A stretch of DNA of 64,000 nucleotides from Treponema primitia ZAS-2 (GTDB lineage Bacteria > Spirochaetota > Spirochaetia > Treponematales > Breznakiellaceae): contig NC_015578.1 of assembly GCF_000214375.1 (NCBI RefSeq), positions 868,001 to 932,000 on the forward strand, read 5' to 3'. The position numbers and the translations under genes are program-made. Under the pieces are notes generated by a model that was not told the origin of the DNA, did no database searches, and saw nothing but the letters and a program-made list of their open reading frames with translations. This document shows positions 59,783-61,973 of this stretch, piece by piece. Position 1 is the stretch's first letter; each line of letters begins with the position of its first letter.

Positions 59783-60649
59783 CTACCCGTTCATGGCGCT
59801 TCGCCTGTCCCTCACCGCAGCCAGCCTTTGTTCCAGCCCTTCTCCCTGCCCGCCAGTGATAAGCGCCTTCAGGGAGTCCAGGCTCCCTTCAAACTGCTCT
59901 ATGCGCTGCAGTAATTCTGTTTTATTTTCCAGGAATAGTTCTGCCCACATGGGTGCGTTGAGCATGGCGATCCGGGTGAGGTCCTCAAAACTGCCGCCCC
60001 CGAAGCGGGTGATTTCCGTGTCAGCCTCGCAGTCTATCAGGGCTGCGGCGATAACATGGCAAAGCTGGGAGGTAAAGGCTATCTTCCGGTCGTGTTCCTC
60101 CGGCGTAGTCTCAGTAATCCTGCCGAAACCCATGCGGTGAATCAGGGCTTTCAGGAATTCCAGGTTTTCCGGTTTGTTCTGCGCCAGGGGGGTGAGGATG
60201 TAGTTTTTCCCCTGAAAGTTACAGTGTTTCGCGTTGGCAAAGCCCCCTTTCTCGCTGCCCGCCATGGGGTGACCGGGGATAAAGTCCAGGTCCGGCCGCA
60301 AGGTCCTTTCCACCGCTTTGACGATGTTGCCCTTAATACCCGCAATATCCGTGATGAGGGCGCCTGGGCGGAAGGCTGCCATCCAGGTTTCCAGGAACCT
60401 GAGCAGGGTGGAGGGATTGAGGCAGAGGAAGACCAGATCGCACTGCCCCAGTATTATTGTGGGGTCGTCTTTCCCCATGAGCAGCCCCTGGTTGATGACC
60501 CCCTGAGCTTTAGCCGCCTCCAGGGTTTCGCCGTCCGCCTCCAGTGCCAGGATGCGCCGGGGCCCCAAGGGCCTGAGCGCGAGAGCTATTGCGCCGCCCA
60601 TGAGGCCTAATCCCACGATACCCACAGTACAGTCTTCGATAAGTTTCAT
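59783..60649 (-). CDS. tyrA: Prephenate dehydrogenase (TyrA)
   Basis: The 288-residue dehydrogenase converts prephenate to 4-hydroxyphenylpyruvate for tyrosine synthesis. The NAD(P) site is GIVGLGLMGGAIALAL at the N-terminus; the catalytic part has FIPGHPMAGSEKGG (conserved His and Ser) and TPEEHDRKIAFTSQLCHV. Chorismate mutase and ACT domains are absent. It is 12 bases after aroF in one operon. Together with aroF it is under tyrosine attenuation. Confidence 0.93.
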   Translation of the reverse strand: MKLIEDCTVGIVGLGLMGGAIALALRPLGPRRILALEADGETLEAAKAQGVINQGLLMGKDDPTIILGQCDLVFLCLNPSTLLRFLETWMAAFRPGALITDIAGIKGNIVKAVERTLRPDLDFIPGHPMAGSEKGGFANAKHCNFQGKNYILTPLAQNKPENLEFLKALIHRMGFGRITETTPEEHDRKIAFTSQLCHVIAAALIDCEADTEITRFGGGSFEDLTRIAMLNAPMWAELFLENKTELLQRIEQFEGSLDSLKALITGGQGEGLEQRLAAVRDRRSAMNG

Positions 60650-60661
60650 TATCGTTCCTTT

Positions 60662-61687
60662 TTATATTATTTTTTCTTCCAGGGCTGCATATTTCCGCAG
60701 AACTGTCATGAGCGAATCGAAAGCGTCCGGGGTAATGGACTGCTCCCCATCACAAAGCGCCTCCTCAGGGTTGTTGTGCACCTCGATGATGAGCCCGTCC
60801 GCCCCTGCCGCAATGGCCGCCTTTGCCATGGTGGGAACCATCCAGGCAAGCCCTGTGGCATGGCTGGGGTCCACGATCACCGGGAGGTGGCTCTTCCGTT
60901 TTAAGGCCGGAATGGCGCTGAGGTCCAAGGTGTTCCGGGTAAAGTTATCAAAGGACCGTATGCCCCGCTCGCAGAGGATTATCTGATCGTTACCCCCGGC
61001 CATGATGTATTCCGCAGCCATGAGCAGTTCAGTGATAGTACACGCATAGCCCCGCTTGAGGAGTATGGGTTTGTGGCAGCGGCCCAGTTCTTTGAGCAGG
61101 GTGAAGTTCTGCATGTTCCGGGCCCCTACTTGGACAATGTCAACTTCGTCAAAAAGTTCCAGTTGGTGGATGGCCATGAGTTCCGTCACAATGGGAAGCC
61201 CGGTTTCTTTCTTCGCCTCCAGAAGCAGGTCCATCCCTTCGCAGCCCAGGCCCTGGAAACTGTAGGGGCTGGACCGGGGCTTGAAGGCGCCCCCCCGGAG
61301 AAAAGTGGCCCCTGACTGTTTTACCGAATTGGCTATGCCCACTATCTGCTCCCGGGTCTCCACGGAACAGGGGCCGGCCATGATCCCCAGGCTTCCCGCC
61401 CCTATGCTCCGCACCTGGCCCCCGGCAACCGGAATATCGATCCGGGTATCCAGGGGGTGAAAAGCCCGGTTAGCCCGCTTGTAGGGCTCCTGCACCCGGA
61501 CAACCTTTTCCACCAGGTGGTGGGCCTGAAGGCTTTCTTCGCTGATCCCCGTGGTGTCCCCCACCAGGCCCAGGACAGTCTGGGAGGTTCCTGCCGAATA
61601 GTGAACCTTGACCCCCCGCCTTTCCAGCAGGGCGGTAAAGTTTTTGATGTCCTCCTGGGCGGTTCCCGGTTTAATGGCAATGATCAT
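60662..61687 (-). CDS. aroF: DAHP synthase (AroF/AroA-beta type)
   Basis: The 341-residue enzyme condenses phosphoenolpyruvate with erythrose-4-phosphate to start the shikimate pathway. The N-terminal ferredoxin-like domain (~1-75, MIIAIKPGTAQEDIKNF) resembles the regulatory domain of T. maritima DAHP synthase that senses Tyr/Phe. The barrel shows AGPCSVETREQ, GGAFKPRSSPY, LLKRGYACTITE and DPSHATG. The ATG at 61687 fits homologues; a longer frame back to 61762 lies in the attenuator. It is preceded by a complete tyrosine attenuator. Confidence 0.95.
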   Translation of the reverse strand: MIIAIKPGTAQEDIKNFTALLERRGVKVHYSAGTSQTVLGLVGDTTGISEESLQAHHLVEKVVRVQEPYKRANRAFHPLDTRIDIPVAGGQVRSIGAGSLGIMAGPCSVETREQIVGIANSVKQSGATFLRGGAFKPRSSPYSFQGLGCEGMDLLLEAKKETGLPIVTELMAIHQLELFDEVDIVQVGARNMQNFTLLKELGRCHKPILLKRGYACTITELLMAAEYIMAGGNDQIILCERGIRSFDNFTRNTLDLSAIPALKRKSHLPVIVDPSHATGLAWMVPTMAKAAIAAGADGLIIEVHNNPEEALCDGEQSITPDAFDSLMTVLRKYAALEEKII

Positions 61688-61738: not shown

Positions 61739-61790
61739 AAAAAAAGGGAGGCCCCTTGGCAATACTCTTATTGCCCTGGAGTCTCCCTGG
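61739..61790 (-). terminator. Attenuator terminator before aroF
   Basis: On the minus strand GGGAG and CTCCC pair at the base, GGCAATA pairs with TATTGCC at the top, and seven Ts follow (plus 61739-61745 are A). The 5' arm lies within 61778-61790, the segment that can instead pair with upstream 61827-61835 (GGAGCCTGG with CCAGG then CTCC after a 4-base bulge). This mutual exclusion marks an attenuator. Confidence 0.8.
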
Positions 61791-61813
61791 TTTACAGGTT
61801 ATGGGTGTTTAGA

Positions 61814-61924
61814 TCAGCTAAACACCCCAGGCTCCGCGGGGTTTGAGGACAGATAATAATAGTAGAGGTAGGCCTGGATAAGGGAGGCGGTTTTATCTGT
61901 TCGGAAAGACGCGGAACTTTTCAA
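61814..61924 (-). CDS. Tyrosine-rich leader peptide of the aroF-tyrA operon
   Basis: A TTG at 61924, preceded by AGGA at 61931-61934 with 6-base spacing, opens a 36-codon frame ending TGA at 61814. Codons 19-24 read Tyr-Leu-Tyr-Tyr-Tyr-Tyr, five Tyr of six (61853-61870). The stop codon lies in a perfect 10-bp hairpin (61803-61827). Ribosome stalling at the Tyr codons would leave 61827-61835 free to form the antiterminator; translation to the stop would mask it and let the terminator fold. The peptide has only regulatory function. The start codon is inferred. Confidence 0.72.
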   Translation of the reverse strand: MKSSASFRTDKTASLIQAYLYYYYLSSNPAEPGVFS

Positions 61925-61945
61925 TATTTTTCCTTTCAGGGATAC

Positions 61946-61973
61946 GTTATAACAGAACGGCGGAAAATGTCAA
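61946..61973 (-). promoter_or_regulatory. Promoter of the aroF-tyrA operon
   Basis: On the minus strand TTGACA (plus 61968-61973) and TATAAC (plus 61946-61951) are 16 bases apart. The transcript would begin about 61939, just before the leader-peptide ribosome site. Confidence 0.7.

Follow-up and report, generated by a model that had tools for sequence, protein, structure and literature searches.

Upstream of the aroF-tyrA genes of Treponema primitia ZAS-2, we found an element that very probably belongs to the ribosome-mediated transcription attenuators, of which trp and his are the type cases, and that would sense Tyr-tRNA. On the basis of its sequence and of its counterparts in related genomes, we assign to this reading a probability of about 0.91. 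The element lies on the minus strand of the window, i.e., the whole 64,000-nt stretch of DNA that was analysed. There, a short translatable frame with a start codon and a ribosome-binding site is located downstream of a promoter; the codon run of the frame matches the amino acid made by the aroF-tyrA pathway and is conserved; and an intrinsic terminator sits between the frame and the first gene. Furthermore, folding models predict an antiterminator that is mutually exclusive with the terminator and would be freed by a ribosome standing at the sensing codons. From these features we infer that the frame is translated, that ribosomes stall on it, and that read-through into aroF responds to tyrosine.

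The aroF-tyrA locus and its leader frame

The gene aroF (60662..61687, minus strand) starts with ATG and encodes a 3-deoxy-7-phosphoheptulonate (DAHP) synthase of 341 aa (Pfam PF00793 and PF18152, NCBIfam NF006421; by name, Pfam DAHP_synth_1 and NCBIfam PRK08673). It is followed on the same strand, after a gap of 12 nt, by tyrA (59783..60649), which encodes a prephenate dehydrogenase of 288 aa (Pfam PF02153 and PF20463, PDH_N/PDH_C). The earlier note on this DNA had claimed that the controlled genes make tyrosine, and the Pfam and NCBIfam assignments agree with it. The logic of the attenuator fits because the downstream genes encode a DAHP synthase and a prephenate dehydrogenase.

The same note had described a promoter, a ribosome site, a TTG-started frame with Tyr codons, a stop within a 10-bp hairpin, and a terminator, and each of these parts was found again in its place. 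Reading along the minus strand, a sigma-70-type promoter, TTGACA-16-TATAAC, spans 61946..61973 with 11/12 matches, the −35 box TTGACA (61973-61968) being separated by a 16-nt spacer from the −10 box TATAAC (61951-61946). A generic promoter scanner missed it, since it accepts only T as the sixth base of the −10 box. The ribosome-binding site AGGA (61931..61934) stands 6 nt ahead of the TTG start (61924-61922) of a 36-codon frame, MKSSASFRTDKTASLIQAYLYYYYLSSNPAEPGVFS* (61814..61924), identified from the sequence and from its equivalents in relatives. The putative sensing codons, TAC CTC TAC TAT TAT TAT (Y L Y Y Y Y; 61853..61870), place five Tyr among six codons.

RNA elements and the predicted switch

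The RNA of the leader contains the regions expected of such a switch. Region 1, which comprises the 5′ arms of a protector stem (GTTCCGCG, 61917-61910, and ACAGATAA, 61900-61893; overall 61893..61917), lies at the start of the frame and pairs with the segment after the Tyr codons and with the last Tyr codon, as indicated by the minimum free energy structure and by covariation. Region 2 (CGCGGAGCCTGG, 61827..61838), assigned from pairing and covariation, is inside the frame, about 15-26 nt past the last Tyr codon, and is the partner of either region 1 or region 3. A 10-bp hairpin found by folding, GGGTGTTTAG/CTAAACACCC (61827-61818 with 61812-61803; overall 61803..61827), holds the stop codon TGA (61816-61814) in its loop. 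Region 3 (CCAGGGAGACTCC, 61778..61790), defined by pairing and by alignments, is common to the antiterminator and the terminator. The intrinsic terminator (61739..61788) consists of the 3:4 stem (61788-61745; −25.7 kcal/mol, with covariation) and ends in a run of seven T (61745-61739).

The alternative pairing of 61835-61827 (GGAGCCTGG) with 61790-61778 (CCAGGGAGACTCC), proposed in the earlier note, is present as written. The switch is more complete than was thought there, as it adds the 1:2 protector stem. The whole leader of 192 nt has a folding energy of −62 kcal/mol (z = −4.8), a value reached by none of 200 shuffles.

We then modelled the effect of ribosome position by constrained folding, in which the ribosome footprint was held unpaired and only the RNA before region 4 was taken as transcribed. 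In the window leader, a ribosome standing at the last Tyr codon gave an expected number of 2:3 pairs of 7.8; moving it to the stop codon lowered this number to 0.0, and leaving it out gave 1.2. In the last state, the protector 1:2 formed in place of 2:3. These values support the claim that stalling would favour the antiterminator and that finished translation would mask it. In the modelled stalled state, two hairpins lie within the 2:3 stem, namely that of the stop codon and a small one of the CCUG/CAGG type, and the antiterminator is thus predicted to be a three-way junction containing the stop-codon hairpin. Among 43 leaders of the family, at least four 2:3 pairs were obtained in 29 in the stalled state, in 9 when the ribosome had reached the stop codon, and in 20 when it was absent; under this simple footprint model the trend is the same as for the window leader, but weaker. 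At equilibrium, the full-length RNA preferred the terminator in nearly every leader. Since the complete RNA prefers the terminator, antitermination would have to be kinetic, as in other such systems, being decided during transcription.

The proposed sequence of events is as follows. Transcription would start just ahead of the short frame, with the ribosome trailing the polymerase. A shortage of charged Tyr-tRNA would hold the ribosome at the Tyr codons, so that the 1:2 stem is broken and region 2 is freed just ahead of the ribosome; region 2 would then pair with region 3 in a three-way junction around the stop-codon hairpin, at a time when region 4 is still to be transcribed. Formation of 2:3 would block the terminator and aroF-tyrA would be transcribed. 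When tyrosine is plentiful, the ribosome would reach the stop codon, open the stop hairpin, and cover region 2, leaving region 3 to pair with region 4 and transcription to end. Without translation, the 1:2 stem would form in the window leader and the terminator would again be favoured.

Conservation in the family and in a sister family

AroF homologues are present in 170 of 200 genomes of the family to which T. primitia belongs, and a Tyr-rich frame precedes the close homologues in 43 distinct leaders. Their Tyr runs include, for example, FYYYYYY, SSYYYYYLS, and YFYYYYYYLS, and the 43 leaders together use 157 TAT and 80 TAC as sensing codons. The order of elements is Tyr-rich frame, CGGAG-type segment, stop codon, and terminator, with about 70-145 nt between the stop codon and aroF in most of them. 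The GGA core of region 2 starts 11-20 nt past the last Tyr codon, a spacing that would be consistent with the leading edge of a ribosome. The stop codon falls in a hairpin in 42/43 leaders (mean z = −2.1).

A covariance model built from the family leaders matched 46/200 family genomes, representing 23/57 genera, nearly always once each; the matches that were checked are located at aroF, except for one at a contig edge that could not be placed. In a phylum-wide sample, the model also found a sister family, in which 47 aroF leaders carry Tyr-rich frames and terminators with sequences quite different from those of the family (e.g., the peptides MKNITYAYYYYWYSHKACRVLAK and MNTVTTRWAYTSSNFSSLFTEVYFYYYYWFYCCPRSVHVRH). 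Promoters with at least 10 of 12 matches stand just upstream of the frame in 21/40 family leaders (0.5 expected) and in 42/47 sister-family leaders (2.9 expected). Between the two families the flanking peptide diverges and the Tyr runs are constant, only the Tyr residues being conserved.

The leader is missing in several lineages of the family (L046, L142, L127, L137, L144, L036, L168, L173, and L174), and it was not found before the fused DAHP synthase genes checked, nor before the free-standing ones checked in other spirochaete families. In some of the leaderless lineages, only a few nt separate the end of the upstream frame from aroF, which would fit a loss of the leader and a joining of aroF to an upstream operon.

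Firmicutes tyrosine genes are commonly controlled by T-boxes (PMC1262725), and the element described here has a terminator at its end, against which another pairing competes. One may thus ask whether the RNA itself binds uncharged tRNA, as a Tyr T-box, or tyrosine, as a riboswitch, the short frame being incidental. We consider this very unlikely: nothing meaningful matched in Rfam, neither for the window leader with E as high as 10 nor for four relatives at the gathering score, and the T-box covariance model did not match the leader. The conserved feature is an open frame whose Tyr runs keep a near-fixed distance from region 2, rather than an aptamer core, and the runs differ in length and in the use of TAT and TAC.

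The recurrence of Tyr-rich frames at one position in some 90 leaders from the two families also bears on the simplest explanation, namely a constitutive partial terminator accompanied by a Tyr-rich frame that arose by chance, with aroF controlled by a repressor at its promoter. Runs of four Tyr codons do occur 33 times in the 4.06-Mb genome, below the 53 of the reversed control, and it is conservation, not rarity of the run, that rules out chance as the source of the run. This conservation, together with the covariation of the alternative stems reported below, makes the partial-terminator explanation the least probable of those considered. Among the genomic loci with four Tyr codons in a row, the window leader has by far the strongest layout, combining a short frame with a −26 kcal/mol terminator. 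Another of the Tyr-run loci of the same genome (L195) was inspected by eye and discarded as a leader.

Covariation of the alternative stems

The earlier note had held that related leaders should share a Tyr frame and covarying terminator and antiterminator stems, and that their absence in close relatives would speak against an attenuator. Aligned relatives contain both frame and covarying stems, in two families. The covariation alignments discussed here cover the 43 family leaders. In the terminator, 94.5% of the cells are paired and 9/11 pairs show double changes, a result reached by none of 500 shuffles. The protector 1:2 has 74% of its cells paired vs 34-50% when slid, and exceeds all 500 shuffles both in double-change cells and in covariation score.

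The antiterminator 2:3 is 83.8% paired in the family vs 32-51% when slid. In the family alignment (A2) it does not exceed the shuffle control, because the columns are conserved; at its most variable well-paired position, G-C changes to A-U in step (Fisher p = 0.004). In the strict ungapped test, native 2:3 partners of the family were not better than swapped ones (p = 0.13), because the leaders resemble each other; in the gapped test, they beat them (p = 0.007). Free duplex search with gaps is too permissive in GC-rich leaders, and alignment counts and the ungapped test were used instead.

The native 2:3 helix of the sister-family leaders outperforms both shuffles (p = 2e-12) and swapped partners (p = 9e-9), p-values that take no account of the relatedness of the species. 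Examples of helices in this sister family are TGCGGAAA/TTTCCGCA, CGCAGGGT/ACCCTGCG, and GTGCGGA/TCCGCAC, and further ones are TTCGGAAGTTT/GGACTTCCGAA and TTGCAGAGTTCT/GGAGCTCTGCAA. These comparisons indicate that compensatory changes preserve the antiterminator, with the strongest signal in the sister family.

The pairing of region 2 also helps in judging whether the leader could act through its peptide, which would stall the ribosome when a small molecule is present, as the erm and tna leaders do. In favour of this, the residues PAEP often stand directly after the Tyr run in relatives. They are explained by the RNA pairing of region 2, however, and change when the pairing partner changes, and the Tyr residues are the only ones conserved between the families. 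Nascent-peptide arrest is hence as improbable, in our judgement, as a T-box or riboswitch, and a Tyr-tRNA-sensing attenuator remains the preferred reading.

Origin of aroF and of its leader

In the AroF tree, the Treponematales sequences fall among clostridial ones, away from the fused DAHP synthase of other spirochaetes; T. primitia also carries a DAHP synthase of the fused type as a second copy. The nearest neighbour of the treponeme AroF is a Eubacteriaceae MAG (L049), whose leader has Tyr codons. This suggests that the gene and the leader type came together from Bacillota and that the sensing codons were narrowed to Tyr. Since the branch uniting the treponeme sequences has moderate support (84/72), we regard a Bacillota origin as a lead.

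As regards the second DAHP synthase of T. primitia and other spirochaetes (L002 and the second hits in the sister family), it is encoded by a frame of about 650 aa, apparently a fusion, is roughly 46-53% identical over the DAHP part, and has no Tyr leader. Many clostridial aroF leaders (loci L052-L058, L061, L063, L070-L077, L080, L081, L084, L087-L092, L095, L096, and L104) contain frames rich in Phe/Tyr and sometimes in Trp, followed by a terminator, and a core resembling FFYFxFWGFYFSAGYxFC is conserved in several of them. The clostridial aroF leaders that were scanned matched neither an Rfam family nor a T-box.

Comparison with known attenuators

In the enterobacterial trpL, hisL, and pheL leaders, the frame is rich in codons for the product of the pathway, the 1:2, 2:3, and 3:4 stems are mutually exclusive, and the terminator precedes the first biosynthetic gene. 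The treponeme leader is like them in its product codons, in its exclusive stems, and in the place of its terminator. Unlike them, it would sense tyrosine and its host is a spirochaete; its region 2 lies inside the frame and a conserved hairpin separating regions 2 and 3 holds its stop codon, an arrangement that would turn the antiterminator into a three-way junction.

Attenuation by Tyr-tRNA of aroF(-tyrA) in E. coli and Shewanella is, as far as the citing papers relate it, a hypothesis of Camakaris 1980 (cited in PMC8632094 and PMC2659441). The operon and the proposed signal are the same as here; unlike in that hypothesis, as there related, in treponemes the leader, the Tyr codons, and the covarying stems are seen. 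In Acholeplasma, uORFC-13-1 stands before aroF with Phe codons, a promoter, and a terminator, and attenuation was predicted; its 24 representatives come only from Acholeplasma and environmental sequences (PMC8632094). Compared by its published description, it shares with the treponeme leader a short frame of aromatic codons with promoter and terminator before aroF, but its codons are Phe and not Tyr. The putative leader peptide of Corynebacterium glutamicum aroF (PMC4046766) likewise precedes a DAHP synthase gene, but contains Phe-Tyr-Phe, is a single peptide, and belongs to another phylum. Classical leaders outside Proteobacteria and Actinobacteria, the only phyla in which the authors previously knew leader-peptide systems, were described before hisS/hisZ in bacilli (PMC2965389); these are His leaders of Firmicutes, and neither spirochaetes nor tyrosine are mentioned in that text. 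Attenuators upstream of tyrA operons were predicted by computer in several phyla, Treponema being absent from the portion of the text searched (PMC1173090).

The earlier note knew of no tyrosine leader attenuation in spirochaetes, and the literature searched likewise yielded neither a clear tyrosine leader nor one from a spirochaete; an example might be contained in Lopatovskaya 2010, which treats attenuation in bacteria at large (cited in PMC4833913). The mechanism is classical, and the sensed amino acid and the phylum appear new within this literature.

A histidine leader and wider meaning

The genome also has a frame for the peptide MNRIFAALGHHHHHGYSLPPESGGFAR* and a terminator ahead of hisG, at 11 kb past the end of the window. 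Judged from its sequence, this histidine leader (G000:C1:943440-943715; L326, L359) has a promoter-like TTGACA and, after the His codons, a GGAATCC complementary to the 5′ arm of the terminator (GGATTC). Equivalent His leaders occur at 10/30 loci examined, the hisG locus of this genome included. Classical attenuation is thus not an isolated case in these spirochaetes. Four His codons in a row (CAYCAYCAYCAY) are found 67 times in the whole genome vs 24 times for the reversed control, and these runs are not confined to leaders. Patterns of Trp and Phe codon runs gave no convincing leader among the loci fetched (for Trp, the first 15 places).

A wider picture, to which we give even odds, is that Treponematales have widespread Tyr-specific leader attenuators whose stop codon lies in a junction hairpin, that these were inherited along with an aroF branching among clostridial ones, the leaders of which mix Phe, Tyr, and Trp codons, and that they form, with the His leader, an amino-acid control network. 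The roughly 90 comparative examples would allow codon-by-codon and stem-by-stem tests to be designed directly, and the treponeme leader could be a ready part for a tyrosine biosensor. Together with the clostridial aromatic leaders, it would let a shift in sensing specificity be followed, from mixed aromatic to Tyr only. Classical attenuation would be extended to spirochaetes and, if the wider picture is true, an attenuation-based network of amino-acid control would exist in a phylum where none was known.
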